Below are positions 32,782 to 60,872 of a stretch of DNA of 64,000 nucleotides, one piece after another (within the stretch, counting starts at the first letter, position 1; the number at the start of each line of letters is the position of its first letter). The position numbers and the translations under genes were made by a program. The stretch is from Bdellovibrionales bacterium CG10_big_fil_rev_8_21_14_0_10_45_34. GTDB taxonomy: Bacteria; Bdellovibrionota; Bdellovibrionia; Bdellovibrionales; 1-14-0-10-45-34. The stretch is from contig PEZS01000011.1 in assembly GCA_002778785.1 (NCBI GenBank), positions 478,882-542,881 on the forward strand, given 5' to 3'. Under the pieces are notes generated by a model, which was not told the origin of the DNA, searched no databases, and worked only from the letters and a program-made list of their open reading frames with translations.

Positions 32782-33826
32782 AGTTTTCAGCTTAAACGAG
32801 CGAGAACTGTGGACCGATGCTCTTAGTGAACTCGAGACGCACCTCAGGGATGTTTACTTTACCCCCGACTATTACCAACTTCACCAAAATTACGGGGATG
32901 GAGTCGCAGAGTGTGCCCTTTATAGCGGGGCATCCGGATGCCTAATTTATGCCTACTTAAAAAACCCCATCCGCCCCCTAGGGTACGATCTTCCTAGCGA
33001 GCATTATGACATCCAGGGGGCCTATGGTTACAACGGGCTTGCGGGCTCCTTAAGCGACCACAATGAATTATCTAAGTTTCATTCAGAGTTTTCGAACTAT
33101 TGTCGAGACTCTAACATTGTCGCAGAATTCACCCGATTTCATCCTCTCATTGAAAATGTAAATTACTCCCGCGACCATTTGTCTGTTCGCAAAAACAGGA
33201 GCACCGTCAAAGTCATCCTAGATCGATCATTTATTGAGATTCAAAAAGAATTTTCTGATAGTTGTAGAAGAGCCATCAGAAAGGCTGAGAAAAACGGAAT
33301 AAAGATTACCACTCATACTAGCAGTTTTCATATTGCGGATTTTAAACGGCTTTACAAAGCGACTATGGATCGAACACGCTCTCGGCCCTACCTGTACTTT
33401 AGCGACAGTTATTTTGAAGAGCTTTTTAGAGTGCCGAATCTCGTTCAATTTTGCGCATGGCTAGATGATAAGGTTGTAGCAACCTCTCTTTGTTTTTTAA
33501 GCACTCCATTCTTTCATTACCACCTTGGCGCGTCCGCCACGGAGCACTTATCAATGAGGCCGAACAACTTACTATTTCAAGAGATGATTTCGTTTGCGAA
33601 CGCACGCGGTGCTAAACTACTGCACCTGGGTGGCGGCAATACAGCATCGCCGGACGACAGTCTATTCAAATACAAAACCAGCTATTCTCATGCCCTTTGT
33701 GATTTTTATGTGGGATACAAAATTCACGACGAAGAGACTTACAAGAATCTCTGCGACGAGTGGGATCGTAAAGCAAACTTACCTAAACTCAACACTGAAG
33801 TTCTCAGGTATCGTTCATCGATTTGA
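32771..33826 (+). CDS. FemAB/GNAT-type acyl- or aminoacyltransferase
   Basis: The protein is 351 residues. SCRRAIRKAEKNGI, TMDRTRSRPYLYF and LLFQEMISFANARGAKLLHLGGG are typical of FemAB-like proteins of the GNAT superfamily (Acetyltransf_6). These transfer an amino acid or acyl group to an amino sugar or lipid. The TTG start lies inside the end of the methyltransferase gene. Attachment of an amino acid or acyl group to an amino sugar of the surface polymer is likely but unproven. Confidence 0.78.
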   Translation: MSLKVFSLNERELWTDALSELETHLRDVYFTPDYYQLHQNYGDGVAECALYSGASGCLIYAYLKNPIRPLGYDLPSEHYDIQGAYGYNGLAGSLSDHNELSKFHSEFSNYCRDSNIVAEFTRFHPLIENVNYSRDHLSVRKNRSTVKVILDRSFIEIQKEFSDSCRRAIRKAEKNGIKITTHTSSFHIADFKRLYKATMDRTRSRPYLYFSDSYFEELFRVPNLVQFCAWLDDKVVATSLCFLSTPFFHYHLGASATEHLSMRPNNLLFQEMISFANARGAKLLHLGGGNTASPDDSLFKYKTSYSHALCDFYVGYKIHDEETYKNLCDEWDRKANLPKLNTEVLRYRSSI

Positions 33827-35134
33827 CTTTTTTAATCGCGTTTTTACAAACGCGATGGCCTGAAGCGGCGAAAGATTCGGTACAGAAAGAATTCCAAATT
33901 CTCTTTTGTATACCCACACTAGGACAGCTTTTAGTCCAACTAAGCTAATCCCTTGAGAAATCGCGGCACCGTAGATTCCCAAATTTGGTATAAGAGCCGC
34001 AGAAAGTGCTAGATTCAATCCCGCAAAACACCACATCCACTTGGCAACCGAGTTTTGCTTGCCGACCACATACATGATGACAATGATAAATCCAGAGAGA
34101 CTACTTAAAAAGAATGACGTTGTGAGTATTCTTAATACACCAGAGGCCTCTACGTACTCGGATCCGAACAGCGACAATAACGGTTCTGCAAAAATTAAAA
34201 TTGCAAGATAGGCTGGAGTCGTAAACCAAAATATGGCTGAAGCGACCTGAGAGACAAACTTCTGAATAGCCACTTTGTTGCCTTCAGAATGAAGCCGCGA
34301 GAATGTGGCGACTCCCACAATTGTCATTGCTTCGTATACGAACTGAATCATCTCCGCGCCGCGAGCGGCCGCTACGTAAATACCAACATCATGTGAAGGC
34401 CTGAGTTTTCCTAGAACTAACACTTCGCCTTTACTGAGCAAAATAAACCCCAAGCCGCTACCGACAAGTCCGATCGCAGGCGCAAACCACTGTTTGATTT
34501 CAAATGTTGGCTTTGCTTCGTTTAAATGAAGTGGCTTTTCTACTTTGTAAAGAGCAACGTAACCAACAATGAGTGTTACAATCCAAGCTATTAAGTTGAT
34601 GTATGCAGCTTCCTCTACGTTTACCGATTGATGCCATGTAACCCAACCCAGTAATAAAAGTAAGATACCACCCGGGTAGACAATGTTTTCTGGAATTTGC
34701 GCCCAGATCGGATGGTGCATCGATCTAATAATGGCCTGGCGCACTTGCCCCGCAATGATCAAGGGGAGAGTCAAGAACATGAGTGCAAAAACATAATGAT
34801 CAGATTGCGCAAAAAAAGTAGTCGCAAATATTGTGACGAGCGCGATAAGAAGTGAGCTAGTGGTGCTAGACACATGAGCAAAGCGAAGAATTCCTCGCAA
34901 TCGACCCTTGTCATTTTCGTTTAAAAATTTTGGGATGAATCGCAAAAGAGTGTGGTCTAAGCCCAAAATTGCAGGCAGAGATATCACTGAAATGACTGTT
35001 ATCGCATAAGAGTAGACGCCATATCCCTTCGCCCCTAAGATCCTTGCTAATAATAGGCCAACAAAAAATCTCAGCGCGTGCCCGCTACTTCGAACCAAGA
35101 AGGAATACGCACTACTTTTGTATATCCCGTTCAC
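33815..35134 (-). CDS. wzx: Oligosaccharide flippase, Wzx-like (MOP/PST superfamily)
   Basis: The protein is 439 residues with about 12-14 hydrophobic segments. It opens with SSAYSFLVRSSGHALRFFVGLLLARILGAKGYGVYSYA, here split between N-terminal helices, as is usual for Wzx/PST transporters. It moves lipid-linked repeat units to the periplasm. Its ATG overlaps the HAD gene stop (4 bp), and its 3' end overlaps the convergent FemAB-like gene by 12 bp. It is the last gene of the operon starting at 40061. A second flippase domain occurs at 45633-48629. Confidence 0.88.
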   Translation of the reverse strand: MNGIYKSSAYSFLVRSSGHALRFFVGLLLARILGAKGYGVYSYAITVISVISLPAILGLDHTLLRFIPKFLNENDKGRLRGILRFAHVSSTTSSLLIALVTIFATTFFAQSDHYVFALMFLTLPLIIAGQVRQAIIRSMHHPIWAQIPENIVYPGGILLLLLGWVTWHQSVNVEEAAYINLIAWIVTLIVGYVALYKVEKPLHLNEAKPTFEIKQWFAPAIGLVGSGLGFILLSKGEVLVLGKLRPSHDVGIYVAAARGAEMIQFVYEAMTIVGVATFSRLHSEGNKVAIQKFVSQVASAIFWFTTPAYLAILIFAEPLLSLFGSEYVEASGVLRILTTSFFLSSLSGFIIVIMYVVGKQNSVAKWMWCFAGLNLALSAALIPNLGIYGAAISQGISLVGLKAVLVWVYKREFGILSVPNLSPLQAIAFVKTRLKKSNR

Positions 35135-35913
35135 AGTTTTTCACTCGTTTGACTTTTGACCAACTGGCCATGAACACTCGCTTCATGCCAACTTGCAAGT
35201 TTTTGAGCAGTGACATCGCTGAGACTGCTAACAACCTTATCGGCTCCAGCTTCTTTAAGATTTTGGCCGATTCGGTCTAGGCCCAACGTTAAGCCAACGT
35301 TGGCAGCCTTAGAAGCCTGCACACCGGATATGGCATCTTCAATAATAATAACGTCAGACGGACTACAAGAAAATTCTTTGATCAACTCCGAGAACATATC
35401 GGGATGTGGCTTGCCTCTTAAGTGCCTCTCCTTGATAGTGTTGCCATCGTAAATCTTTTTAAAGTATTTGGTTAGGCTGGCCCTTTCTAGCAAATATCGG
35501 CAGTTTTTGCTTGAAGACGCCACCGCAAGGTCAATACTTACGCTACTTAAGTGATTGATTAAATTTTCACAATCTTTGAAAACTTCGACACCCAACTCGT
35601 CGATTAGATCCAAGAAGATTCTGTCTTTCTTGTTACCTATACCGACCACTGATTCAACTGACTGATCTGTATCTTCCCCGTGTGGCAGCTCAATATCTCG
35701 TGAGCGCAAGAAATTCCCGATTCCGACAAGCCTGGGTTTTCCATCGACATGTTCGTGATAGTCGGAGTCAATTCGAAACTCTTTAAAGGTCTCACCCTTT
35801 CTCTGCGATCTCTTGGCAAGCATCTCATCAAAGACACTCTTCCACGCTCTTGCGTGTACGACCGCTGTGTTTGTTATTACACCGTCCATATCAAAAATAA
35901 CCAGTTTAAACAT
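35131..35913 (-). CDS. HAD-superfamily phosphatase/phosphomutase (beta-phosphoglucomutase-like)
   Basis: The protein is 260 residues from the ATG at 35913, which overlaps the upstream stop by one base (TAATG). FDMDGVITNT is motif I, with nucleophile Asp and general acid Asp. AVASSSKN, GKPHPD and VIIIEDAISGVQA are motifs II-IV. A helical cap (about 20-100, with HVDGKPRL) is like that of beta-phosphoglucomutase. It lies directly after the GT4-nucleotidyltransferase fusion, so it may dephosphorylate or isomerise a sugar phosphate for that enzyme. Confidence 0.85.
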   Translation of the reverse strand: MFKLVIFDMDGVITNTAVVHARAWKSVFDEMLAKRSQRKGETFKEFRIDSDYHEHVDGKPRLVGIGNFLRSRDIELPHGEDTDQSVESVVGIGNKKDRIFLDLIDELGVEVFKDCENLINHLSSVSIDLAVASSSKNCRYLLERASLTKYFKKIYDGNTIKERHLRGKPHPDMFSELIKEFSCSPSDVIIIEDAISGVQASKAANVGLTLGLDRIGQNLKEAGADKVVSSLSDVTAQKLASWHEASVHGQLVKSQTSEKL

Positions 35914-37523
35914 TAGGGCGTAACGCCTATTCGCATGCGTTCGATGGCTTTGCTCGAGGAGGTTGTCCATTCGCGCGTAAAATAGACGCAGCCGCCAGCT
36001 TTTTCTACGGCCTGCTTTTCAAGCTGAAAGTTAGGATTAACTTGTTGATCTGGCGCTTCGTACTCGTCACCTTTTGCAAAATAGTTTGGCTTTAACATCT
36101 CAATTGTTGGAACAGCAGATGGCCACTTATTGATTGCAACCCAACTTACTGCACCAAGCCCTGCAATCAACTCGGCACGCTGTTTCGCAGGAAAAACAGG
36201 ACGGTTTGGGCCTTTGTTAATGAACTCGTCTGGCGTAATGGTAGCAATGAGTACATCGGCTGCTTTTCTGGCTGATTCGAAGTGCCGCAAATGCCCGGCA
36301 TGCAAAACATCGAAGCAACCGTGACACTGCACCACAGTTCTACCCTCAGATTTCACCTGCTCTACAATGGCAGCAAGTCTATCGAGAGTGACCACCCTGT
36401 CTCGTGAGCTGATTGGCAAGGTAGTGGTTGACGACTTAGGTAGTACTTCGAAGTAGAATTTGGCCATCTTAGCCATTTCATTATTGTAGTCGTTCTTATC
36501 TTGAATAATTCTTCTCTCTCTTTCGCCTAGATTAGCGAGCTTCTCTTTTTCAGAAAACAGAGTCTCAATCTTAGTGACCAAATCCTCCGAATCGCTGGCT
36601 CGAAAAAGCTGATAAGGCTCACATATCCACTCTCGGTTTTCGCAAACATCTGAAACCACAACAGGCAGCTTCATAGCCATCGCCTCCGCGGTGCTTGCGG
36701 CTATTCCGGCGTCGGAGAGTGAGGCAGAAACGTATACGTCTGAAACTGTCAAAAACTCTTTGAGCTGTTTCATATTGTATCCGCCTAAAAAACTGACTCT
36801 TTCAGCAATATTCAACTCTTGCACAAGGGCTTTGAGATTTTCCGTCTCTGGTCCTCGCCCAGCAACAAGCAGTTTTACAGATGGATGCTTTTTTTCAAGA
36901 AGCGGAATCGATTTAACGATCGTTGCAATATCGTAAACATCATAATGGTTCCGAGTACTAAGGATAACAGGGAACGCATCATTTAACTCGTAAGACTTTT
37001 GGAGTTCTCTTCGTTGACCTAAATCTGGTGTGAAGTCCACCGTATCAATACCAAAATTAATCCTCTTTATTTTTTTACGGTCGGCTCCCAGATCTACCAT
37101 AGCTTCTATCATGTGATCGGCGTCGGTTGTAACCATCAATGACTTTTCAAGAACCCTTTGGACCAATCTTTTCTTAGCTATGTTGTTTCGGTTCGTAAGA
37201 ATATCGGAGCCCCAGGCTGTGCTTACAATAGGCGCCTTATCTTGAAGTAGTGCCAGCAAGCCGTAAAATCCAATGTAATGTACATGAATTAAATCTGGTT
37301 TCGTCTCTCTAACGACTGCGCGTATTTTTACAGCCGCCCTAGCGAAATTCCAGAGTTTACTTTTGGACCCTCCAAGCTCAATCACTTCTAAGCCCATTTC
37401 TTGTCTTAACTTAGAATCAATTGTGTCAAAGGTTGCCCAAGCAACCTCAAATCCTGCTTTCTTAAAATACTTAATCCACTTGATGCTATGAATAGAGGAT
37501 GAAGCTAAAAACAAAAGTTTCAC
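35913..37523 (-). CDS. Fusion of a GT4 glycosyltransferase and an HldE/RfaE-type nucleotidyltransferase
   Basis: The protein is 536 residues in one open frame. Residues 1 to about 365 are a GT4 enzyme: HVHYIGFYGLL, STRNHYDVYDIATIV, LLVAGRGPE and DAGIAASTAEAMAMKLPVVVSD. Residues about 396-525 are a nucleotidyltransferase with CHGCFDVLHAGHLRHFE, HxGH at 408-411, and TPDEFINKGPNRPVF. This resembles the adenylyl/cytidylyltransferase half of HldE and related enzymes. The GTG start has GGGAG 7 nt upstream. A fusion of sugar activation with sugar transfer is unusual; perhaps it activates and transfers a heptose- or polyol-phosphate. Confidence 0.87.
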   Translation of the reverse strand: MKLLFLASSSIHSIKWIKYFKKAGFEVAWATFDTIDSKLRQEMGLEVIELGGSKSKLWNFARAAVKIRAVVRETKPDLIHVHYIGFYGLLALLQDKAPIVSTAWGSDILTNRNNIAKKRLVQRVLEKSLMVTTDADHMIEAMVDLGADRKKIKRINFGIDTVDFTPDLGQRRELQKSYELNDAFPVILSTRNHYDVYDIATIVKSIPLLEKKHPSVKLLVAGRGPETENLKALVQELNIAERVSFLGGYNMKQLKEFLTVSDVYVSASLSDAGIAASTAEAMAMKLPVVVSDVCENREWICEPYQLFRASDSEDLVTKIETLFSEKEKLANLGERERRIIQDKNDYNNEMAKMAKFYFEVLPKSSTTTLPISSRDRVVTLDRLAAIVEQVKSEGRTVVQCHGCFDVLHAGHLRHFESARKAADVLIATITPDEFINKGPNRPVFPAKQRAELIAGLGAVSWVAINKWPSAVPTIEMLKPNYFAKGDEYEAPDQQVNPNFQLEKQAVEKAGGCVYFTREWTTSSSKAIERMRIGVTP

Positions 37524-37537
37524 AATGGTCTCCCAAA

Positions 37538-38278
37538 TTAAATCATTTCAACATTTCTATCAGTGACAACCTCGGTCGCACCCGGTGGCTTAGCCGGCAG
37601 AAGGGGTGCAGATCTACCAGAAACCGCAACAAGTTCCGCAGAGCCACCCAGTTTCTTCACCAACGACTGAACGCCTCGAAGTGCTAACGGTCGATTGACA
37701 AAGGATAATACAGTTAACCAAATTACCTTTAAATCTAAAAAAAGGTTCTGATGTTCTACATAAAGCAGGCCCAGACGGCTCTTCCAAGGTCTTACTAGTT
37801 GATTGTAAGCGATATTAGCATCTTCGTAGCCCTCAAGAATGTTGGCTAAATCGAAAAACACAACAGAGGATAGATCCGTAACGCCCGGTTTAATTGTAAG
37901 AAGTTTTTTTTCTTCGTGGGTGTATATCTTGATTTCTCTTTGAACGTTTGGGCGAGGACCAACTACCGAAAGATCGCCCATTAAAACATTTAAGAACTGT
38001 GTTAGCTCATCAACTTTAAATCGTCTTATTAAATGGCCTACACGAGTTATTCTGGGATCATCTTTTTTTGTCGAGTCCACTTGATTTGCGTGAGCGCCTA
38101 CAACCATCGTGCGGATTTTGATCATTTTAAAAGGTAGAGCGTTCTTACCAACTCTCTCTGACAAAAAAAAGGGGCTTCTTCGGTCATGCCTATACACGGC
38201 AAAAAGGGCTACTAATAACAATGGCGACGTTAAAATAAGTGCAAAAAATGAAAAGAAGATATCAAATAGCCGTTTCAT
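37538..38278 (-). CDS. Initiating phosphoglycosyl transferase (PglC/WcaJ-type bacterial sugar transferase)
   Basis: The protein is 246 residues. One N-terminal re-entrant hydrophobic segment (about 5-28) is followed by PFFLSERVGKNALPFKMIKIRTM, then RVGHLIRRFKVDELTQFLNV and MGDLSVVGPRP. These are the signature blocks of monotopic phosphoglycosyl transferases, including the catalytic Asp-Glu pair in KVDEL. It loads the first sugar-1-phosphate on undecaprenyl phosphate and so begins the repeat unit. The C-terminal tail beyond residue 205 is extra to the small PglC form. It overlaps the aldo/keto reductase by 17 bp. Confidence 0.92.
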   Translation of the reverse strand: MKRLFDIFFSFFALILTSPLLLVALFAVYRHDRRSPFFLSERVGKNALPFKMIKIRTMVVGAHANQVDSTKKDDPRITRVGHLIRRFKVDELTQFLNVLMGDLSVVGPRPNVQREIKIYTHEEKKLLTIKPGVTDLSSVVFFDLANILEGYEDANIAYNQLVRPWKSRLGLLYVEHQNLFLDLKVIWLTVLSFVNRPLALRGVQSLVKKLGGSAELVAVSGRSAPLLPAKPPGATEVVTDRNVEMI

Positions 38279-41171: not shown

Positions 41172-42287
41172 CTAAGAATTCGCTTCAGTTTCTCTGACAA
41201 TTCCTAGAATTGTTTTTGAAAATACTAAGACAATTCCAAATATGAGTCCCAAAACAACGGCACTCGGGAATATGACAAGCACCTGTGGTTTAACTGGATC
41301 TTTGTGTGTATACGGAGCTTGGTCAACGTGCAAAGCTATCAAATAGCTCGATTTAAAATCAAAGGCTTCAAGCATTTTTAGCTGGTTCATTAGCTTGCGT
41401 ACGGAATGGTCAAAGGACGCCGGATCCTTTCTGGCTTTAATTGCATTTATCTCAGCCCGCAATGCCTGACTGCCCCTAAAATAACTCAAATTCTCTGGCG
41501 AAGATAAGTCCGACATTTCGTCTGAATTTGCACTACTAAGCTGGCCATTTTCGACCAGTACAGTCTGCCGTGAACTAAAGGCCACTTGATCTGGCTGAAC
41601 GAAAACCGAACGCGAAAGGCTTAGCCTGTTGGCAATACTTTCAGACTCTGCAAGTCTCGTTGTAGCACTCTCCCACTCTCGCTTTATCAGTTCATTTTTT
41701 AACTGAATCTGTTTTTGTAATGTCGCTCTTTTGTTCTCAATAGATTTTTCCATAAACGAAACGGCCGAGCCCACGATCTGCTCATTGGCAAGGGTGGCTA
41801 ATTCAAATAGCCACTTCTCAGTCATTTTAGGTTCGTGAAAATCCATTGAAACGACATAGGCCTTGATATCTGGCCCCTCCCCTATGGGCGACATCGAAAT
41901 CTTTGAATCAAACCTTTGGTAGAAAACTTCAGTTACCTCCTCAGGTTCCACGTCAACAGGCAACTGACCGGTCAAATGGTGATACAGACCCTTTTTATCA
42001 AAGTACTCTCTTCTAAGAGTTTTTGAACCAAGGGCACCTACAGCCTGCTGAAAGAGATTTCCATTAGGACGGAATTCATTTGGTACGCCAAGCATAGACA
42101 ATGTATCTAGCGAAGGAGCTCCTATTTGAAGTTCAGTGCGGTAGCGCCACTTAGTTAAGGATACATAAGCAGTTGCTAAAATTAAGGCCGCGGCTACCGA
42201 TATCCAAATAAGTTTTTGCTCTCTCTTAAAGAGAATCAACAACTCTACAAGACCAATTTCCTCAGATAGTCCTTTTGAATTACCCAT
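41172..42287 (-). CDS. wzz: Chain-length determinant, Wzz family
   Basis: The protein is 371 residues. The N-terminal membrane segment (about 30-48, WISVAAALILATAYVSL) and a second near the C-terminus (about 338-360) flank a long periplasmic coiled-coil-rich region. KPQVLVIFPSAVVLGLIFGI carries the proline-rich motif before the second segment. There is no kinase domain, so it is Wzz-type rather than Wzc-type. It sets polymer length for Wzy. It is the last gene of the DegT-E1alpha-E1beta operon, 4 bp from the E1 beta stop. Confidence 0.88.
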   Translation of the reverse strand: MGNSKGLSEEIGLVELLILFKREQKLIWISVAAALILATAYVSLTKWRYRTELQIGAPSLDTLSMLGVPNEFRPNGNLFQQAVGALGSKTLRREYFDKKGLYHHLTGQLPVDVEPEEVTEVFYQRFDSKISMSPIGEGPDIKAYVVSMDFHEPKMTEKWLFELATLANEQIVGSAVSFMEKSIENKRATLQKQIQLKNELIKREWESATTRLAESESIANRLSLSRSVFVQPDQVAFSSRQTVLVENGQLSSANSDEMSDLSSPENLSYFRGSQALRAEINAIKARKDPASFDHSVRKLMNQLKMLEAFDFKSSYLIALHVDQAPYTHKDPVKPQVLVIFPSAVVLGLIFGIVLVFSKTILGIVRETEANS

Positions 42288-42291
42288 ATCC

Positions 42292-43308
42292 CTACCTAAC
42301 AGCCTCTGCGAATAAAGTTTTCTCTATTCTGTTTGAAAAGAATTTTTGCCGGATTTGGGCGACAATCTTATCAGTGGTCGGATAGTATTCGGACTCTAAA
42401 AATTTACTGGTCGGAGCTGGTGCACTCGGTAGCGTGACCCGCAAAGGAGCGCATTTGAAATGGTCAGGCCCAAGTTTTTCAAAAACGCTTGCTATTACCT
42501 CACCCGCTAGTCCGCAGTTCCCCCAACTTCCATCAATCGCGACGAGGCGACCTGTTTTCTTTACTGAACTCACAATTACATCTGTGTTGAGCGGATTAAT
42601 CACCCGTAGATCTATAACTTCAGCAGATATTCCTTGTTTGGCTAGCTCAACACTTGCAAGTTCGCATAGCTGTGCCGAGTAACTGGCACCAACGAGAGTT
42701 ACATCGCTTCCTGCTCTTCTCACCTTCGGGCCCACTTGCGAAAGATCCTGTTCGATCACAGGGCCGAGGTCATCTTTGAGGTCATACAGCCAACGATCAT
42801 CTATAAACACTACCGGATCTTCGCAAAGAACACTTGCGATCAAAAGGTCTCGAGCATCAGAGGCGGTAGCCGGCATCACAACTCGTAATCCTGGCACATG
42901 TGCGTACCACGAATGAAGCGCCTGTGAGTGTTGTGCCCCCTGCTCGCCCCCGCGATTGATGATCCCGCGAATGGTAACCGATGGCCTCGCCTGACCGCCT
43001 AGCATATGGGCCCATTTGGCGGCTTGATTAACAATGGGGTCGGTCGCAAGCACCATGAAGTCGATGCGAGGATGTACCACCACAGGTTTGTATCCGCAAA
43101 GTGAAGCGCCAATGGCGGCTCCCGTGCAAGCGTTTTCAGATACTGGCGAATCAAGCACACGATCCTTACCAAACTTTACGTCGAGATCGGTCATCGAGTT
43201 ACCAACATACCAAGGACTCCAGAGGCCCTGCCCAATAACAAAAACTTCTGGATATTTTTCTAAAAGATACTCAAAGCCCTTACAAATTGCCTCACCGTAG
43301 GAAGTCAT
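42292..43308 (-). CDS. Thiamine-diphosphate enzyme E1 beta-like subunit (dehydrogenase/transketolase C-terminal type)
   Basis: The protein is 338 residues. RVLDSPVSENACTGAAIGAS contains the Glu that activates the ThDP cofactor. GGEQGAQHSQALHSWYAHVPGLRVVMPA matches the beta subunit of pyruvate/2-oxoacid dehydrogenases, and a transketolase-C-like domain (SDVTLVGASY...VIDLRVINPLN) follows. It overlaps the alpha subunit by 4 bp (ATGA), so the two form one enzyme. No E2 or E3 gene lies nearby. It likely does a ThDP-dependent carbon-carbon reaction on a sugar or small acid. Confidence 0.88.
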   Translation of the reverse strand: MTSYGEAICKGFEYLLEKYPEVFVIGQGLWSPWYVGNSMTDLDVKFGKDRVLDSPVSENACTGAAIGASLCGYKPVVVHPRIDFMVLATDPIVNQAAKWAHMLGGQARPSVTIRGIINRGGEQGAQHSQALHSWYAHVPGLRVVMPATASDARDLLIASVLCEDPVVFIDDRWLYDLKDDLGPVIEQDLSQVGPKVRRAGSDVTLVGASYSAQLCELASVELAKQGISAEVIDLRVINPLNTDVIVSSVKKTGRLVAIDGSWGNCGLAGEVIASVFEKLGPDHFKCAPLRVTLPSAPAPTSKFLESEYYPTTDKIVAQIRQKFFSNRIEKTLFAEAVR

Positions 43309-44393
43309 ATTATCTGCTCCTGAGCTTTACTAGAATAAACAATATCTAAAAGCATACTCTTCGCCGGATATGTTCCTGTATTTGTCTTCGCCCAAGCTGT
43401 TTCCACCTGGTCTTTTACCTCGATTTGTAATTTATCAAATTCTGCGCTAGTAAATTTGCCGCCGGCTACCAGAGAGTCGACGAGTCTTCTAACGGGATCG
43501 CGTCTCTTCCAAACATCAAGATCATCTTTGCGCCTAACTCCGACGTCTCGATCTTCACTTGGGCCAACATGCCCACGCCATCTATAGGTTATAGCTTCAA
43601 GAAAGACCGGCCCGCCGCCACTGCGACAATGCTCAATAAGTCTTCTACTGGCATCCGCAACAGCTACGATGTCATTACCATCGACGACTTCGCATTTTAT
43701 ACCAGCAGCCGCAGCGAACCGCGCCACTGTGTCTGTGGGCTGCCTTAGATCAATGTGCAAATGACTAGAAAACAGGTTGTTCTCGCACATAAATACAACG
43801 GGCAGATTGTACACTTTAGCTAAATTCAAAGACTCTTGAACAACGCCCTCTTCTGTTGCGCCATCTCCGAAAAATGCAACACCCACATCGAGATTTGAAG
43901 AGTCTTTCTTTCTCTGGCCATCCATTTTTGCGGCAAGTGCCGCACCCACTGCCAACGGCACCGTGCCCGCAACAATAGGAACAGTCCCCTTGAGGCCCTG
44001 CTTCTCAGCATACAAGTGCATGGAGCCACCAAATCCTTTTGAACACCCTTCTAGCATGCCCCGCACTTCGTAAAATAGTTCATCTAAAGGCGCACCTGAC
44101 GCCAAATAATGCGAATGTGATCTATGGGCGCCAAACATCCTGTCGGAAGGTCGTATGGACTCACAAAATCCCACGGCTACAGCCTCTTGGCCTATAGCTA
44201 AATGGCACGGACAACTGATTGTTCCATCAACTACTTTGTCTGCTATTTTTTCTTCTGCGTATCGAATCACTAGCATTTTCTTAAGCCAGTGAGCTAATTG
44301 ATTCGCTTCGTATGATTTTAGATCAATTGGACCCGAATATTCACCTGCTTGTGCAAGCCGGCCTAATCTTGGCAAATTTTCTGAGTTCTGCAC
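43305..44393 (-). CDS. Thiamine-diphosphate enzyme E1 alpha-like subunit
   Basis: The protein is 362 residues. It has MLVIRYAEEKIADKV, HLAIGQEAVAVGF, FGAHRSHSHYLASGA and the ThDP/Mg motif GDGATEEGVVQESLNLAKVYNLP...ENN (GDG...N). These are the marks of the alpha subunit of 2-oxoacid dehydrogenases. The start is GTG with GAGGGTG just upstream. It lies between a DegT aminotransferase and the beta subunit. The absence of a lipoyl E2 partner argues against a normal dehydrogenase complex. Confidence 0.88.
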   Translation of the reverse strand: MQNSENLPRLGRLAQAGEYSGPIDLKSYEANQLAHWLKKMLVIRYAEEKIADKVVDGTISCPCHLAIGQEAVAVGFCESIRPSDRMFGAHRSHSHYLASGAPLDELFYEVRGMLEGCSKGFGGSMHLYAEKQGLKGTVPIVAGTVPLAVGAALAAKMDGQRKKDSSNLDVGVAFFGDGATEEGVVQESLNLAKVYNLPVVFMCENNLFSSHLHIDLRQPTDTVARFAAAAGIKCEVVDGNDIVAVADASRRLIEHCRSGGGPVFLEAITYRWRGHVGPSEDRDVGVRRKDDLDVWKRRDPVRRLVDSLVAGGKFTSAEFDKLQIEVKDQVETAWAKTNTGTYPAKSMLLDIVYSSKAQEQII

Positions 44394-44411
44394 ATCACCC
44401 TCGTAATATTT

Positions 44412-45527
44412 CTATCGTTTATAAAAATTTCTGATGGTCTCGCTAACAAAGTCGACGTCGTCGTTACTGAGATACGGATGCATCGGAATCATCATGCAAC
44501 GCTTAAACATTGCATCTGTATAAACTAAGTCAGACCCATCAAGGCCTAGCTTTTTCATATGGTGTACGGCCCGTCCGCCCCACTGAACAAGAGTGCCGAC
44601 TCCCGCCTCGTTCAAGTAGTTTCGAAGTCCATCCCTGTCATCTGCTTCAAGTTCGTAATTTTGAAAAACATCATAGTGTTCTTTTTCAGATTCAGGTGCC
44701 GGTGGAAGCTGCAATTGTTTTAGCTCGCCCAACTGCGACTGATATCTAGATGCAATTTCTCTTCGTCTAGAAACATCTTCTTCATAATACTTTAGTTTTA
44801 GGTTTAAGATCGCCGCCTGAATATTATCTAAGCGAGAGTTGTAACCCCACATGACGATCTCGTTGTCTTCACCGCGACCGTGATCTCTCAGAGCACGCAC
44901 CAATTTAGCTGTTTCATCATCGCTTGTCAGAACAGCCCCCGCGTCGCCAAAAGCACCCAATGTCTTGGCAGGATAAAAACTAATTGTTCCTGCTTTACCA
45001 AAAGTACCCGCGCACTTTCCGTTGAATTTTGAGCCTAAGGCTTGGGCAGCATCTTCAACTATTAATAGGCCATGCTTATCGGCCAAAGATTGAAGCGCTG
45101 CCATGTTGCAGGTTCTGCCATTAAGCTGAACAGGCAATATAGCTCTTGTTTTACTGGTAATTTTTTTCTCTACAGATTTTGCATCTAACATGTGATCTGG
45201 GCCACAATCGGCAAGTATTGGTTTTGCGCCAACAAAATGCACTGAAGAGGCTGTTGCAATAAAAGTATGCGAAGGCAGAATCACTTCATCCCCAGGTTGA
45301 ACACCGCTAGCTTTAAGTGCAATCACAATGGCGGCTGTGCCATCGGCGACACCGAACGCATATTTAGAGCTGGTGAACTTGGCGAGATTAGCCTCGAACT
45401 CTTCGAGGTCCTTCTGCATAATGAAGGCGCCCCTCTCTGCAACGTCAGTAATTGTTGCGAGGATTTCAGCTTTGCGACTTTGAAAAACTGCTGGATAATT
45501 GAAGAAAGGTACTTTTCTATAATTCAT
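44412..45527 (-). CDS. PLP-dependent sugar aminotransferase (DegT/DnrJ/EryC1/StrS family)
   Basis: The protein is 371 residues. VADGTAAIVIAL, LPSHTFIATASSVHFVGA, VEDAAQALGSKFNGK and the Schiff-base stretch SFYPAKTLGAFGDAGA (Lys) are all present. It is a third member of this family in the window, next to WbpE (5872) and LegC (22884), and is clearly distinct from both. It is the first gene of an operon with the E1-like pair and Wzz. It probably aminates a keto-sugar whose carbon skeleton the ThDP enzyme extends or supplies. Confidence 0.9.
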   Translation of the reverse strand: MNYRKVPFFNYPAVFQSRKAEILATITDVAERGAFIMQKDLEEFEANLAKFTSSKYAFGVADGTAAIVIALKASGVQPGDEVILPSHTFIATASSVHFVGAKPILADCGPDHMLDAKSVEKKITSKTRAILPVQLNGRTCNMAALQSLADKHGLLIVEDAAQALGSKFNGKCAGTFGKAGTISFYPAKTLGAFGDAGAVLTSDDETAKLVRALRDHGRGEDNEIVMWGYNSRLDNIQAAILNLKLKYYEEDVSRRREIASRYQSQLGELKQLQLPPAPESEKEHYDVFQNYELEADDRDGLRNYLNEAGVGTLVQWGGRAVHHMKKLGLDGSDLVYTDAMFKRCMMIPMHPYLSNDDVDFVSETIRNFYKR

Positions 45528-45632: not shown

Positions 45633-48629
45633 TCAGGCCCGGCGCGACCGCCTAGTGCTTGGGTGTCGCGAGCCGAAGAGTTTGCCCATTGCCATGATAG
45701 CGCTGACACGCGACAGGGGCGTATCCCTAAGTATGTTTGCAAATGCTTGAATAAATAAGCCCAACCCAAAATCCATACTGGAAAAGTAGAGAAGCCTAGT
45801 TCGCAGTGGCACACTGAGTCCGCTTTTTTGAGCTTCATCGACAATAAACTGAGTTCTCAGCCAGGAGGCGACAAACTTTTCTTTTAAAGGGGAGTCGGCT
45901 CTCTGCCGGGCGATTGGGAATAGACCCACAAATGGTCGAACGCCGACGACGTTGTGGTTGTGCTGGCGATAGGCATGCAGGGGTCGGTTGACGGAAAAGA
46001 TTCCCCGGCTGCAAGAGGCCACCAGGGCAAACCAATGATCATGGTACTCAATTTGATCGGGGATATCTTGGAATCTTTCTGCCAAATCAGCGGCTATTAA
46101 AGACGCTGCCCCGGTCACGACGTTTCGGGCCACCACATGAGAGGGCTTAACGCATTTGAGCCCTCTTCTCTCAACAGCCCAAACGGTTTCCTCTCTTTTT
46201 ATAAACTGGCCGCTATCCCATTCTAAAAAATGCATGTCAGCGTGAACAAGGCAATTTGGCCCTCGCTTTTCTAATTCACGAACTAGCTCTTCAACTTTGT
46301 GTTCATACCAAACGTCATCTTGATCAGAAAATGCGACAGCGTCGATTTCAAAATCGAGAACGTCTTTTAGTACCGCTTCGAAGTTTTTCTTGTGCCCTAA
46401 TCTTGCTGGGTTCTCTCTCCAGTGAAATCTGGAGTCTTGGAGGTATTCGTTAAAACGACTATCGTTCTCTATTTGAGCGAGCGGACTATCGAACCGAACG
46501 ACACAAAGCCAATTCTCGAACGATTGGCAGCGAATGGATGCAAGCTGCTCCAAAAAATACTCTGGATTGGGCGCGTGAGCCGCCATTGCGATGCCCACTT
46601 TGCCAACTTGAAAACTTTTATTAGCCTTTAGCTTCACATAAGTAAGCTCAGCATCTGGTGAGCCAACCAATTCTTTTGACCCAGACCATTCAACGCCTCC
46701 CAGATCACCAAGCAATGCTTTTTCTAGCTGATGGGAGTGGCTGGAGCTAAATAAGAGGCGTAACTCTGCCCCCGGTTGTACGATAGGAGAAATTTTATTT
46801 TTTAGTAGAGATCTAACCGCCTCTTCAAAGCCAAAATCATTGGCCGATAAAGCATTAAGATTGATTGCAACGGCATCGAACTTTTTAAATCCCTTCAAGT
46901 TTTCTATGTTAAGAAAGTTAGCGTCTGTTACTAACCAACCATTCTTTTTGAAATCGTCCGAAATTGCCCTGTCAATGTTCACAGATAGCAGGCGGCCCTT
47001 CGGAACAAACGGAATCTCAAACACTTTCTTCTTGATCCACGTTCTAACGATCGGGTTCATTCCGATAAGCCGCCCAAGAATTTCTTGCAGAATAGTGACG
47101 TCTTTTGAGTAACCTAACCTTGCGGCTAAAAAACCTCTCTCTAGCCACTGGCAAAAACGCACTCCCGGTAGCGACTCGTCTTCGGCAGAAAGCAGTGGCA
47201 CAACTAAAACTATGTTAAAGACGACAAATCCGAGTGCGAGAATAGCCCTTGCCCAAAGTGGTAATGGTATCCAAAAAAGAATCCCGCAGGCGACAAGCGG
47301 CAAGACCCAAGCAAGAATCTGCGAGAACTTGATTTTTGAAAATCTGCCAAGGCGCACAGACAAAGCAAATAGAGCAATCGCATCGATCGTTGTTCGAAGC
47401 ATCCACGCAAGCGCCGCTCCGCTAACTCCCATTTTGTGAACTAAAAACCAAATACCTGAAACATAAAAAGGTAGCTCAATACAATGTAGCTTTGCTGTTA
47501 GATCCGCACGCCCCAACGCCTGCACGTGAGCAAATGGAATATGGGCAAGACTGTTCATCAAGATTCCAATTGTCAGCCACCTTACTATTGGCGTGCTTTC
47601 TGTCGCGAAATCCGCGCCCAACCAACCATGCAGCATCTCTGGCGCAAAGAAGCCAATGAATACAATGGCCGGAAAGACAAGAACGAATATCCAGTGCACC
47701 GACTGCATAAAAATGGATTCATTGACTTGATTCTGATTGGAGCGCCCTCCTAGTTTTGAAAAAAGTGGAAACGCAGTTGTCATGACCGCTGAAGGGACGA
47801 TCCAAAGTCGTGTGAGAACTTCGTAGGGCGTAGTGTAATAGGCCACCATCGACATAGGTAGAATCACACCCAGTAAAAACCGATCGAAATACACCATTAG
47901 CGGACTGATAATATTGCTGATGGTCATCCATGTGCCCACCCTAACTAATGGTATCAAGAGACCCGGCTTCCAATGATCGCGTAGCTTAAGACCTCCGACT
48001 ACAAATCGCACTTGCCACATATGAAGAAGAGCAAAAATGGCTCGCCCAATAACGAGCGCCATAACCACTTTGTCTAAAGAATTCGTCCATGGAAGCACCA
48101 CCCATGGACTCAGGTAGTTGTAGAGCCCCACTCCCATTCTTAGTTTGTTGCTTTGATCGAATCGCTCGTACGCCTCGAGAACCCCTCTAAACCCTGCCGT
48201 CGTTGTTAAAAAAGGTACCGAGATTGCTAGCCACAAAAATGTGCGATACGCCTCGAGATGAAGCTCTTCGGGTAGGTGAAACAATTCTCTTACTAAAGGT
48301 GAGGCGACGGCGGCCACGATGACGCCGCCGACGATTCCCATAACAAACATGATCCACAAGGTGGTGATGACGAGACTTGGGATGTCTTTTTCTTCTTCTC
48401 CCCCAAGCTTTCTTGCAATCCCATGAGTGAGGGCGCGGCCTAAACCAAAATCAAAGAGACTAAAATATCCTGCGACCATCCACGCAACAGTGAGAGTTCC
48501 AAACCGGTCGTTACCAAGTTCCGAAATCAACTTCGGAATTGCAAAAAGGGCTACGATCATTGGAAGCCCCTGCCCCAGCAGGTTCCAGAAACTATTTTTG
48601 GCTAGCCCCTTTGAATTTTTTGCGCTCAT
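45633..48629 (-). CDS. Three-part fusion: Wzx-like flippase, degenerate methyltransferase-like domain, GT2 glycosyltransferase
   Basis: The protein is 998 residues in one uninterrupted frame. Residues 1 to about 490 are a Wzx/MATE-type flippase with about 14 hydrophobic segments (AKNSFWNLLGQGLPMIVALF...GNDRFGTLTVAW). Residues about 520-670 look like a class I methyltransferase (PKGRLLSV...GWLVTDANF...FDAVAINLNALSA...VQPGAELRLL), but the glycine-rich SAM loop is gone (SVNIDR). Residues 676 to about 960 are a GT2 domain with AFSDQDDVWYEHK (DxD at 769-772). The GT2 part is a close paralogue of the adjacent gene at 48755. The flippase probably carries its last transferase with it. Confidence 0.88.
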   Translation of the reverse strand: MSAKNSKGLAKNSFWNLLGQGLPMIVALFAIPKLISELGNDRFGTLTVAWMVAGYFSLFDFGLGRALTHGIARKLGGEEEKDIPSLVITTLWIMFVMGIVGGVIVAAVASPLVRELFHLPEELHLEAYRTFLWLAISVPFLTTTAGFRGVLEAYERFDQSNKLRMGVGLYNYLSPWVVLPWTNSLDKVVMALVIGRAIFALLHMWQVRFVVGGLKLRDHWKPGLLIPLVRVGTWMTISNIISPLMVYFDRFLLGVILPMSMVAYYTTPYEVLTRLWIVPSAVMTTAFPLFSKLGGRSNQNQVNESIFMQSVHWIFVLVFPAIVFIGFFAPEMLHGWLGADFATESTPIVRWLTIGILMNSLAHIPFAHVQALGRADLTAKLHCIELPFYVSGIWFLVHKMGVSGAALAWMLRTTIDAIALFALSVRLGRFSKIKFSQILAWVLPLVACGILFWIPLPLWARAILALGFVVFNIVLVVPLLSAEDESLPGVRFCQWLERGFLAARLGYSKDVTILQEILGRLIGMNPIVRTWIKKKVFEIPFVPKGRLLSVNIDRAISDDFKKNGWLVTDANFLNIENLKGFKKFDAVAINLNALSANDFGFEEAVRSLLKNKISPIVQPGAELRLLFSSSHSHQLEKALLGDLGGVEWSGSKELVGSPDAELTYVKLKANKSFQVGKVGIAMAAHAPNPEYFLEQLASIRCQSFENWLCVVRFDSPLAQIENDSRFNEYLQDSRFHWRENPARLGHKKNFEAVLKDVLDFEIDAVAFSDQDDVWYEHKVEELVRELEKRGPNCLVHADMHFLEWDSGQFIKREETVWAVERRGLKCVKPSHVVARNVVTGAASLIAADLAERFQDIPDQIEYHDHWFALVASCSRGIFSVNRPLHAYRQHNHNVVGVRPFVGLFPIARQRADSPLKEKFVASWLRTQFIVDEAQKSGLSVPLRTRLLYFSSMDFGLGLFIQAFANILRDTPLSRVSAIMAMGKLFGSRHPSTRRSRRA

Positions 48630-48754: not shown

Positions 48755-49714
48755 CTAAAGATTTTTGTGATGAAGCCCTTTTGAAGAATTCAGTTTACCC
48801 AAGGCTCTGGCAAATGAACTTCGTGCAAGAGGACGATCAACACAGAAGTACCGTAGGCCTTGAATTCCAAGACCCAGGCCAAGATCCTTGCGAAGATAGG
48901 TTAAATCAAACTTTTTGTCCCGCGCCAATCCACTCTTTACGACGGCCTCGATCCTAAGCTTCGTTTGTATCCAGGCTTTCTCTGCAGTTTGCCAAAACCC
49001 GTTTGCTTTGATGCGGGAGCTGGTATTAAAAAAACCAACAAAGGGGCTCGCTCCTACGACGTTCTCGTCGTGCTGCCTATAATAAAAAAGCGGCTCACGA
49101 ATAGGCCAAACTCCACCTTTTGTGCTTGCGACAACCGCGTACCACCAATCATGAAATTCAAAACCATCTGGTATTTCCAAATGGTTTCTAACAATCTCGG
49201 CATCCATTAAACTTGCTGCGCCGGCCGCGACGTTTCTTACCATAAGGGTGGTGAGGTTCGCATGGTTGACTCCTCTTTTTTCTAAAGCCCAGACAGAATC
49301 ATGAGTGGGCTTCCAGACGCCACTAATATTTTGCATCCAGTACATATCACAGTGAACTAACGAGCCAGGGCCACGTTTTTTGTACTCAGCAAAAGATCGT
49401 TCTAGTTTGTGCGGCATCCAGATATCGTCTTGATCACTGAAGGCGATAAGATCGGCAGACTCACCAAGACAAAGCTCAGCTGCCTTTTGAAAGTTTTTTT
49501 TATGGCCTAGCCGGTGGGGGTTTTGAACAATGCGAAATCTTTTGTCGCTGAATTTCTGTAGAATTTGCGAAACTTCTGACGGATCGGAGTCGAAGGTAAT
49601 GTAGCAAATCCAATTCTTGTAACTTTGCTCTTCAATGCTTTTTAACTGTACCTCGAAGTACTCAGGTTCGGGCTTGTAAGCAGCTAGGGCGATTCCGATA
49701 AGCGGTTGTAGCAT
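48755..49714 (-). CDS. Glycosyltransferase family 2, paralogue of the fused GT2 domain
   Basis: The protein is 319 residues with IGIALAAYKPEPEYFEVQL at the start, RLGHKKNFQ, AFSDQDDIWMPHK (DxD) and YRQHDENVVGASPFVG. Each block matches the C-terminal part of the 998-residue neighbour (RLGHKKNFE, AFSDQDDVWYEHK, YRQHNHNVVGVRPFVG), so they are duplicates of one ancestor. The ATG abuts the galE stop directly. It transfers a sugar, possibly galactose or another hexose given GalE, but specificity is unknown. Confidence 0.88.
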   Translation of the reverse strand: MLQPLIGIALAAYKPEPEYFEVQLKSIEEQSYKNWICYITFDSDPSEVSQILQKFSDKRFRIVQNPHRLGHKKNFQKAAELCLGESADLIAFSDQDDIWMPHKLERSFAEYKKRGPGSLVHCDMYWMQNISGVWKPTHDSVWALEKRGVNHANLTTLMVRNVAAGAASLMDAEIVRNHLEIPDGFEFHDWWYAVVASTKGGVWPIREPLFYYRQHDENVVGASPFVGFFNTSSRIKANGFWQTAEKAWIQTKLRIEAVVKSGLARDKKFDLTYLRKDLGLGLGIQGLRYFCVDRPLARSSFARALGKLNSSKGLHHKNL

Positions 49715-51492: not shown

Positions 51493-51799
51493 AAGAAAAC
51501 TGGGGGGGGGATAGCTTTGAGACCCTCCTAAATTCGTATTTAGAATGGTCGGACGTCAGCTTGGCGCAGGATGTGCTTCAGTTTTTCCTACGGGCTCTCT
51601 TTAAAGGAAAACTTTCTACTACACCCAGTACAGATCTCTGGGCGGAGGCGCACTAAAGCCCTAAATGTTTGAAAATATTGCTAAAAATGGCCCGGCTCGC
51701 GCTGCAGAGCTGTGCAAGTGACCTTAAATGAAGACGGGATTTCCTGCTATATGTGTAAGTCAATGTGTGGTAGACTGTGTAAGTAGTAGGAGATTTCAC
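51493..51799. other. Gene-poor stretch of 307 bp
   Basis: No convincing gene is present. It begins with a run of nine G (51502-51510) ten bases after a stop codon. A 61-codon open frame (51471-51656) overlaps the previous gene, has no ribosome site and no recognisable domain, and is not called. The 3' third holds the vapBC control region. Confidence 0.6.
51752..51784 (+). promoter_or_regulatory. Direct repeats upstream of vapB, candidate operator
   Basis: TGTGTAAGT occurs at 51752-51760 and again at 51776-51784, 24 bp apart start to start, with TGTGTGG between. The second copy ends 15 bp before the vapB start, inside the likely promoter. VapBC complexes usually bind such repeats to repress their own operon. 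This is inferred from position. Confidence 0.4.
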
Positions 51800-52000
51800 A
51801 TGGCTACAAATTTGGCTCTGGATGACAAACTCATTGAGGAAGCAAAAGAGATTGGCAAGCACTCCTCAAAAAAGGAGGCGGTGACGGTAGCCTTGAAGGA
51901 GTATATACGCAATCGGCGGCAACGTGAAATTGTAAAACTTTTTGGCAAGATCGAGATTGACCCAAAATATAATTATAAAAAGCAACGAGCTAAAAAGTGA
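51800..52000 (+). CDS. vapB: VapB-type antitoxin
   Basis: The protein is 66 residues (MATNLALDDKLIEEAKEIGK). It has a ribbon-helix-helix type N-terminus and a charged, Lys/Arg-rich C-terminus that would wrap the toxin (RQREIVKLFGKIEIDPKYNY). The ATG at 51800 was chosen because TAGGAG lies 7-8 nt upstream; a longer frame from 51728 has none. The TGA overlaps the toxin's GTG (GTGA). It neutralises VapC and represses the operon. It resembles the VapB subgroup found with PIN toxins. Confidence 0.88.
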   Translation: MATNLALDDKLIEEAKEIGKHSSKKEAVTVALKEYIRNRRQREIVKLFGKIEIDPKYNYKKQRAKK

Positions 52001-52398
52001 TCCTCGTCGACACATGTGTATGGTCCGAGGCCTTGAGAAGATCTAAGCGCCCCGAAAGTGCGGTTGTGATTCAGTTCAGAAAATTAATTGAAGAGAATCA
52101 AGCTTCAATTATTGGACCGATTCGACAAGAACTCCTATCGGGAATCAAAGATCCCAAGTTTTTTACATTGCTCAAGGATAAACTCCACAGTTTTCCCGAC
52201 ATCTCCATTCTCGAACATGACTATGAACTGGCGGCGGAGTTTTACAATCGTTGTCAAAGGGCTGGGGTTCAGGGCTCGAACACAGACTTTCTAATTTGTG
52301 CTGTGTCGTCTCGTTTGAATCTACCAATTTTTACCACAGATAAAGATTTTGTAAGATTTCAGAAGGTTCTTAAGGTCGAACTTTACAATCGACCGTAA
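51997..52398 (+). CDS. vapC: VapC-type PIN-domain RNase toxin
   Basis: The protein is 133 residues with GTG start. It has the four acidic residues of the PIN site: D5 (VDTCVW), E45 (RQELL), D97 (NTDFLIC) and D115 or D117 (TTDKDF). The toxin cuts RNA, often tRNA, when the antitoxin is lost. It follows vapB with a 4-bp overlap. No frameshift or missing residue is seen, so it is probably active. VapBC pairs often sit as small mobile units between housekeeping genes. Confidence 0.9.
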   Translation: MILVDTCVWSEALRRSKRPESAVVIQFRKLIEENQASIIGPIRQELLSGIKDPKFFTLLKDKLHSFPDISILEHDYELAAEFYNRCQRAGVQGSNTDFLICAVSSRLNLPIFTTDKDFVRFQKVLKVELYNRP

Positions 52399-58913: not shown

Positions 58914-59687
58914 ATGAAAGCTGTTATTCTTGCCGGCGGAAAGGGCACTCGCATTAGCGAGGAGAGCCACCTTAAGCCAAAGCCCATGATCGAGATCGGC
59001 GGACGACCTATTTTGTGGCACATAATGAAAATTTATTCGCATTACGGGATCAACGATTTCGTCATCTGCTGTGGCTACAAAGGGTATGTCATTAAAGAAT
59101 ACTTCGCGAATTACTTTTTGCACAGCTCTGACGTTACGTTCGATATGACAAGCAACTCTATGCAGGTTCATCAAAATAGTGCCGAGCCCTGGCGAGTAAC
59201 TGTCGTTGATACTGGCGAAGAAACGCTAACTGGGGGACGCCTCAAACGGGTAAAACAATATCTTGGTGCCGAAGATTTTTGTTTCACTTACGGCGATGGC
59301 GTTGGCAATGTGGACATTGCCGAGCTCATCTCTTTTCACAAAAAAAACGGGCGACTTGCTACTTTAACTGCTACCCAGCCACCTGGAAGATTTGGAAGTT
59401 TGCATTTTGATGGCCCACTCATTACATCGTTTAAAGAGAAACCTCGTGGAGACGGCGGCTACATTAACGGTGGCTTCTTTATACTAAACCCAAAAGTGAT
59501 CGACTACATTAGCGACGACACAACAATTTGGGAGCGTGAACCGCTAGAGAACCTCGCTAAAAATAAAGAATTAGTTGCCTACCATCACAATGGTTTTTGG
59601 CTACCCATGGATACTTTAAGAGACAAACAGACTCTTGAAGAAATGTGGGATTCTGGTTCTGCCCCCTGGAAAGTATGGTCCAATTAA
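58914..59687 (+). CDS. rfbF: Glucose-1-phosphate cytidylyltransferase
   Basis: The protein is 257 residues, the typical RfbF length. It has [48 protein letters not shown] and [17 protein letters not shown]. It makes CDP-glucose from glucose-1-phosphate and CTP, the first step of the 3,6-dideoxyhexose pathway. GGAGG lies 5 nt before the ATG. RfbG and RfbH follow without a gap. Confidence 0.95.
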
Positions 59688-59690
59688 TTT

Positions 59691-60872
59691 ATGAATAAGA
59701 GTTTTTGGAAGGGCAAAAGCGTATTTTTAACAGGGCACACGGGCTTTAAGGGTGCCTGGATGTCTATGTGGCTGAGCAAAATGGGCGCTAACGTCACGGG
59801 GTACGCGTTGGATCCAAACACGACGCCTTCACTTTATGAGCTCGCATGTGTTGCAGGTTATCTAAAAAGCGACATCAGAAGTGATGTGAGAAACCTTAAC
59901 GTGCTTACAGACTCGATGGCTGCTGCTCAGCCCGACGTCGTATTTCATTTAGCCGCGCAGCCGCTTGTTCGCTTAAGTTACCAAGAGCCAGTTTCTACTT
60001 TTGAAACTAACGTTATGGGAACTGTCAATCTGCTCGAGGCCTGCAGAAAAGTTACTTCAGTTAAAGTCGTTGTGGTTGTAACAACTGACAAGTGTTACGA
60101 GAACCGTGAGTGGGTATGGCCCTACCGAGAGAATGAAGCTATGGGAGGGCGTGACCCCTACTCTGGAAGCAAGGGTGCGGCCGAGATTGTTGTATCGAGC
60201 TACAGAAGATCATTTTTTGAGTTTATAGAGTCTAACGGGCATATCTTGCGTGAAGGAGCAGCGCGTGTCGCTTCTGCAAGGGCTGGTAACGTTATCGGCG
60301 GGGGGGATTGGGCGGAAGATCGCTTAATACCTGACTTTTTTAGAGCGCAAAGTGCGAGTAGAAAACTTGTCGTAAGAAATCCGCAGTCGGTACGTCCGTG
60401 GCAACACGTTCTTGAGCCTCTATCTGGGTATATAAACCTGGCGGAAAAAATGTACGATTCGAGCGACAACTCAGATGCTTGGAACTTCGGGCCCAACGAG
60501 ACGGACTGCCAGACCGTGAGAGAAGTATTAGATTTGATCGAGAGGCATATGGGTGAGTCAGACCTTTGGGTTCACGAGCCTGAGAAAAACAAAACGCTCC
60601 ATGAAGCAAATCTCCTAAAGCTAGATATATCAAAGGCTCGCTCTCAGCTTGGATGGTCCCCCCAGTGGGATCTTGCCACCGCAACAAAAATGACGGCCGA
60701 TTGGTATTCGCTGTACTTGAAGCTACTGAAGAGCCAAAACTTTGAAGAGCTTCGGATGCTCACCGAAAATCAGATCGATCTGTACAGTGACACAAGAGAG
60801 CAACTAGCTAATGGATACTTGGATCGAACTCGCAGAGCTAGAAGCGGGCTAAGAACAAGAGGGAATTCATGA
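59691..60872 (+). CDS. rfbG: CDP-glucose 4,6-dehydratase
   Basis: The protein is 393 residues. It has [62 protein letters not shown] and [11 protein letters not shown] with the Tyr-x3-Lys pair. It is RfbG-type and makes CDP-4-keto-6-deoxyglucose using bound NAD. The C-terminal tail beyond about residue 345 ([19 protein letters not shown]) is longer than usual. The stop overlaps the RfbH start by 4 bp. Confidence 0.94.

Follow-up and report, generated by a model that had tools for sequence, protein, structure and literature searches.

A gene that joins a polysaccharide flippase to a glycosyltransferase raises the question of whether both parts belong to one working protein and, if so, what their joining achieves. 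Such a gene lies in the window analysed here, a stretch of 64,000 nucleotides from Bdellovibrionales bacterium CG10_big_fil_rev_8_21_14_0_10_45_34 (contig PEZS01000011.1) that holds a large Wzx/Wzy-type cluster with a Wzz, an initiating transferase and a second flippase. From N- to C-terminus, the encoded protein consists of a Wzx-like MOP flippase, a decayed class I methyltransferase and a GT2 glycosyltransferase. The gene and its parts were located as follows.

45633..48629, minus strand: fused gene of 998 aa (ATG at 48629, stop at 45633, stop codon included)
47187..48629, minus strand: Wzx-like MOP flippase, residues 1-481 (Pfam, 14 hydrophobic segments, AlphaFold, Foldseek)
46614..47165, minus strand: decayed class I SAM methyltransferase, residues about 489-672 (identity to the G090 methyltransferase described below, hhalign)
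45633..46604, minus strand: GT2 (GT-A) glycosyltransferase, residues 676-998 (41% identity to the neighbouring GT2, AlphaFold, Foldseek)

The fused gene is a single open reading frame of 998 codons with zero internal stops, read from 48629 to 45633, and on the 600-kb contig of the genome its copy sits in an open frame of 1002 codons. The first-pass annotation had described a 998-residue frame open throughout, in which a flippase, a methyltransferase-like middle and a GT2 domain follow one another. Its coordinates are right, the strand (unstated there) is minus and all three domain calls hold, with limits refined to 1-481 for the flippase, about 489-670 for the methyltransferase remnant and, for the GT2, 676/677 to about 960 followed by a helical tail. 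In codons 460-700, no Shine-Dalgarno-like site precedes the in-frame starts, any of which might have served as an internal start giving a separate methyltransferase-GT2 protein.

For the flippase part, residues 9-293 match Pfam Polysacc_synt (1.2e-16, 61.4 bits against a cut-off of 28.2), and Polysacc_synt_3 and MatE are matched as well. By hydropathy, 14 membrane segments lie ahead of residue 481 and the rest of the protein is mostly soluble. AlphaFold modelling with 40 rows resulted in 14 helices for residues 1-481 (pLDDT about 85-97), within the 12-14 transmembrane helices of the MOP fold, and Foldseek placed the model in the MOP superfamily through MATE, WzxE and MurJ structures. The match of the N-terminus to MOP flippases, named beforehand in the first-pass annotation as a test, was thus obtained both from Polysacc_synt above cut-off and from the fold. 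Wzx O-unit flippases (MOP superfamily, PST family) resemble the window protein in these two respects and are likewise clustered with Wzz and an initiating transferase; the WzxE structures 9G9N and 9G9O align with a TM-score of 0.77-0.78 by target length at 14-15% identity. In contrast to them, the window protein has 14 predicted helices, not 12, and carries the methyltransferase remnant and the GT2 on the cytosolic side at its C-terminus. In the established Wzx topology the N-terminus lies in the cytosol, which supplies the nucleotide sugar that a GT2 uses. Since 14 is an even number, both termini lie on one side, as is needed for a GT2 working in the cytosol. The fused flippase would move undecaprenyl-PP-linked units, for which the following genes of the cluster provide context.

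41172..42287, minus strand: Wzz-like chain-length regulator (Pfam Wzz 2.3e-6)
37538..38278, minus strand: initiating sugar-phosphate transferase, Bac_transf (Pfam 5e-49)
33815-35134, minus strand: second, stand-alone ordinary Polysacc_synt flippase

The GT2 part was analysed together with the gene directly upstream.

46314..46325, minus strand: DQDD metal and nucleotide-sugar motif, residues 769-772 (13-row alignment)
48755..49714, minus strand: gene directly upstream, a separate GT2 paralogous to the fused one (41% identity, E 2.1e-75)

Pfam Glycos_transf_2 on residues 696-803 remained below its cut-off of 23.3 (0.0014, 19.1 bits), and the upstream neighbour scores 50.4 bits for the same family. 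This neighbour is the sole paralogue of the C-terminal part in its own genome, and both GT2s fall in one 100/99 clade of the GT2 tree. All conserved GT2 motifs (DQDD, HD and YRQH) are present in the fused domain; in the 13-row GT2 alignment, the D-x-D-D positions are invariant and Q is conserved in at least 90%. Because GT2-only rows aligned badly, the GT2 part of the full-length model was unreliable and was modelled again with the middle only, giving a GT-A fold with a core pLDDT of 88-97. Foldseek of this model retrieved SpsA, RmlT, TarP and WrtF. With motifs and GT-A fold intact, the domain is predicted to transfer a sugar.

Among the GT2 relatives, NCBIfam matches were to TuaG, EpsE and WcaA, and another fused type matched the rhamnosyltransferase TIGR01556. 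GT2s of O-unit assembly (TIGR01556 rhamnosyltransferases, TuaG/EpsE-like) share the GT-A fold and the three motifs, but they are soluble or peripheral, whereas the window GT2 is joined to a flippase. The idea of combining a transferase with a flippase is likewise found in DPM1/GtrB synthases with GtrA-type domains, although their flippase belongs to another superfamily and their product is a lipid-phosphate monosaccharide. It is very improbable that the fused GT2 is itself a polyprenyl-phosphate sugar synthase (GtrB/DPM1-like), with the MOP domain flipping a lipid-phosphate monosaccharide for periplasmic glycosylation. A three-component system of such kind does use a MATE-family flippase (PMC11127046), but neither NCBIfam nor the 50 best folds gave a match to DPM1, GtrB or ArnC; the NCBIfam and fold matches (TuaG, EpsE, WcaA; SpsA, TarP, RmlT) are glycan-acting transferases, and related fused GT2s match TIGR01556.

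Residues 490-674 (185 residues), searched alone, gave no match in Pfam, NCBIfam or PDB sequences and no paralogue in the own genome. In 369 genomes of the phylum, one convincing relative was found, all others being above 0.001: a methyltransferase from another member of the Bdellovibrionales (G090), 39% identical over the first 77-80 residues (E 3.5e-9). Alignment to a 57-row methyltransferase profile using hhalign covered residues about 491-572 (Prob 95.5, E 1.4e-8), and homology of the Methyltransf_23/11 type is confined to this range. Residues 576-676 gave no signal against the same profile and have no relative in the 369 genomes. The GxGxG SAM-binding motif is absent.

46965..46997, minus strand: lost SAM-binding glycine motif, residues 545-555 (GRLLSVNIDRA versus GRLLDLGCGDG in intact relatives, G090 included)

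Compared with the G090 methyltransferase, about 80 residues are deleted and the N-terminal zinc ribbon is missing; the catalytic half is incomplete, the rest not being alignable beyond chance, and alignment resumes at FQVGK[IV]GIAMA, where the GT2 begins. The earlier call of a degenerate methyltransferase without its SAM glycine loop is therefore upheld, by sequence for the first half only, and the comparison of the middle with methyltransferases that was proposed along with it gives a match in hhalign though Pfam itself finds nothing. Most likely, residues 490-674 now form a linker or spacer. A pseudoenzyme that is more than a linker, binding glycan or positioning the GT2 relative to the flippase, is improbable. 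Residues 581-640 are modelled with strands and helices in Rossmann-like order (pLDDT about 74-83), and about 180 residues persist while another fusion (G086) does without any middle, both of which would suit such a role; residues 576-676, however, have neither sequence signal nor relative, and a model without relatives is weak evidence.

The origin of the fused gene was traced through G090. Its gene of 771 aa combines an N-terminal zinc ribbon, an intact class I methyltransferase (Methyltransf_23, 2e-25) and a GT2, and is the closest relative of the window middle and GT2 (50% identity in the GT2). Unlike in the window, SAM motif and zinc ribbon are intact and the gene is separate, lying in divergent orientation beside a wzx that runs off the contig end, its C-terminus being beyond the assembled sequence. 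The window flippase is sister of this wzx (SH-aLRT 97) and the window GT2 is sister of the GT2 in the methyltransferase-GT2 gene (97/95). The two ends of the fused gene thus derive from genes that lie side by side in another genome.

Outside Bdellovibrionota, a methyltransferase of the same family lies directly downstream of wzx in 27 of 74 loci, with a gap of -82 to +91 bp. Following a recount with non-overlapping genes, 29 of 72 were observed against 6.8 expected when methyltransferase genes were placed randomly within loci. This order occurs, among others, in Pseudomonadota, Myxococcota, Acidobacteriota, Cyanobacteriota, Nitrospirota, Thermodesulfobacteriota and Methanobacteriota. A GT2 usually comes third; it is of several types, the DQDD type occurring in L056, L058, L062 and L071. 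Two examples from the L044-L123 set of loci are given.

L071:5932-9549: wzx - methyltransferase - GT2
L056:5905-9519: wzx - methyltransferase - GT2

As the domain order in the window equals this gene order of other phyla, the window gene fuses a conserved gene order. Flippases of this 14-helix subfamily stand alone in other phyla, and unfused neighbouring genes are also present within the Bdellovibrionales (G022). On a Niveispirillum plasmid (L171:3998-6442), wzx and a DQDD GT2 abut in one frame and are kept apart by a single stop codon, so that fusion is one substitution away. For the window fusion, one erased stop cannot account, since the zinc-ribbon part of the methyltransferase was lost at the junction.

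Recurrence was assessed by a flippase-profile search (E 1e-40 or better) of 141 Bdellovibrionales genomes. The profile was matched in 21 genomes, and 8 of these 21 flippases, the window included, are fused to a GT2; extension to 369 genomes of the phylum gave no further match. A first scan of the genome collection, using the full-length protein as query, had returned no relatives. The eight fusions, in three architectures of which one is reversed, comprise five Wzx-GT2 proteins whose GT2 is rhamnosyltransferase-like (G054 plus four species belonging to a single genus), one Wzx-GT2 that has no middle and whose GT2 falls in the window's clade (G086), one GT2-Wzx (G122) and the window protein. 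Bdellovibrionales bacterium SXRI01000346 is one of the fused contigs. Among Polysacc_synt matches in Bdellovibrionales, frames longer than 700 aa occur only in these eight fusions. On the flippase tree, the fused label costs 5 changes, at least 3 of which are forced by well-supported branches. In a set of 80 named relatives covering many phyla, this Bdellovibrionales contig alone is fused; the 79 members from outside Bdellovibrionota show no Wzx-GT2 fusion. A Gemmatimonadota protein (L111) that seemed to carry an N-terminal fusion was discarded, its extension being a low-complexity Arg/Gly/Pro-rich translation of an upstream frame with no domain.

The first-pass annotation had suggested a search for the same architecture in Bdellovibrionota and knew of no described system with this layout. 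The Wzx-GT2 layout proves not to be unique, and the exact triple layout (flippase-methyltransferase-GT2) was seen only in the window genome among the 369 genomes of the phylum. Searches of 5.39 million open papers likewise yielded no Wzx-transferase fusion. The parts belong to known families; annotation or domain-architecture databases may list the joined form.

It is hardly credible that the fused gene results from misassembly or is a pseudogene in decay. Its triple form is indeed found in one genome only and its middle is decayed. Against this, the junction lies inside a methyltransferase gene whose zinc-ribbon part is gone, both outer domains retain their invariant residues, and Wzx-GT2 fusions recur in independent genomes.

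Additional GT2 genes were observed next to other fusions. In G122 (L037/L140), a second GT2 of the same kind follows the reversed GT2-Wzx fusion, and in the genus to which G059 belongs, the Wzx-GT2 fusion is overlapped at its start by a rhamnosyltransferase-like gene. Fusions of this kind may as a rule have a GT2 paralogue next to them.

We favour, with a probability of about 60%, a bifunctional flippase-glycosyltransferase in which the cytoplasmic addition of one late sugar is coupled to flipping and the dead methyltransferase acts as linker. In short, the N-terminal Wzx-like flippase would move an undecaprenyl-pyrophosphate-linked oligosaccharide to the periplasm, and the cytosolic C-terminal GT2 would add one sugar to the lipid-linked unit just ahead of flipping, the completed unit thereby being produced at the transporter mouth. 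The middle would have become a linker or spacer on losing its SAM site, and the gene would have arisen by in-frame joining of wzx, methyltransferase and GT2 in that order. The GT2 would accordingly be active, its sugar a late one, and coupling the reason why the fusion persists. Published work shows a preference of Wzx proteins for complete cognate units (PMC6436433) and also that stalled, unflipped lipid-linked units tie up undecaprenyl phosphate, at times with lethal effect (PMC4863624, PMC11813082); proximity of GT2 and flippase would hence be useful. The teichoic acid gatekeeper flippase TacF (14 TM; PMC13385700) is also a 14-helix MOP protein, placed where an incomplete unit could be told from a complete one, but it checks phosphocholine in its own cavity, whereas in the window protein a transferase is part of the polypeptide. 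The first-pass annotation had already suggested coupling, with the last sugar addition in mind; the repeated Wzx-GT2 fusions in this order and the conserved wzx-methyltransferase-GT2 order elsewhere strengthen the coupling idea, in which the sugar may, but need not, be the last. Speaking against it, most relatives work unfused, and the GT2 partner varies between lineages, so that there is no single conserved reaction; moreover, the neighbouring GT2 paralogue could be the one that adds the final sugar. No close relative of the triple form was found.

Instead of being coupled, the domains might each work alone following a neutral fusion by stop loss, with no effect beyond matched dosage and anchoring of the GT2 to the membrane. 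We consider this possible but rather unlikely. The single stop in the Niveispirillum frame fits such an origin, as does the fact that a methyltransferase can decay within the fusion while the fusion stays unbroken. It is countered by the recurrence of at least three architectures, reversed order among them, by retention of the same fusion in four species of one genus and by the absence of the fusion from the 79 relatives outside Bdellovibrionota. A further, doubtful proposal is that Wzx of this subfamily forms the end of an assembly line, at which methyltransferase and GT2 dock and which only finished units enter; the fusions would then be the covalent form of this complex, with the dead methyltransferase docking or sensing.

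In a 2015 proposal, a Wzx complex with substrate-building enzymes was unproven and only Wzy-Wzz was confirmed (PMC4863624); contact of Wzx with the enzymes building its substrate is an open question in the field. The natural Wzx-GT2 fusions and the conserved gene order provide a one-polypeptide system in which the coupling favoured here can be tested by cutting the linker, and the methyltransferase family is named as a likely partner of unfused flippases.

Several other features of the window were recorded. At 35913-37523 (minus strand), a GT4-type glycosyltransferase is fused to a cytidylyltransferase-like domain (Pfam CTP_transf_like 2.5e-13), and a HAD-type phosphatase comes next. Within the sugar cluster, the region 42292-45527 (minus strand) encodes a DegT-type aminotransferase and, beside it, the two halves of an enzyme resembling a thiamine-diphosphate E1 dehydrogenase or transketolase; a possible product of these enzymes is an unusual sugar, branched or long-chain. 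A VapB antitoxin and PIN-domain toxin pair lies inside the polysaccharide cluster at 51728-52398 (plus strand), and genes whose sequences resemble the CDP-glucose route to dideoxyhexoses (rfbF, rfbG, rfbH-like) are found at 58914-62209 (plus strand).
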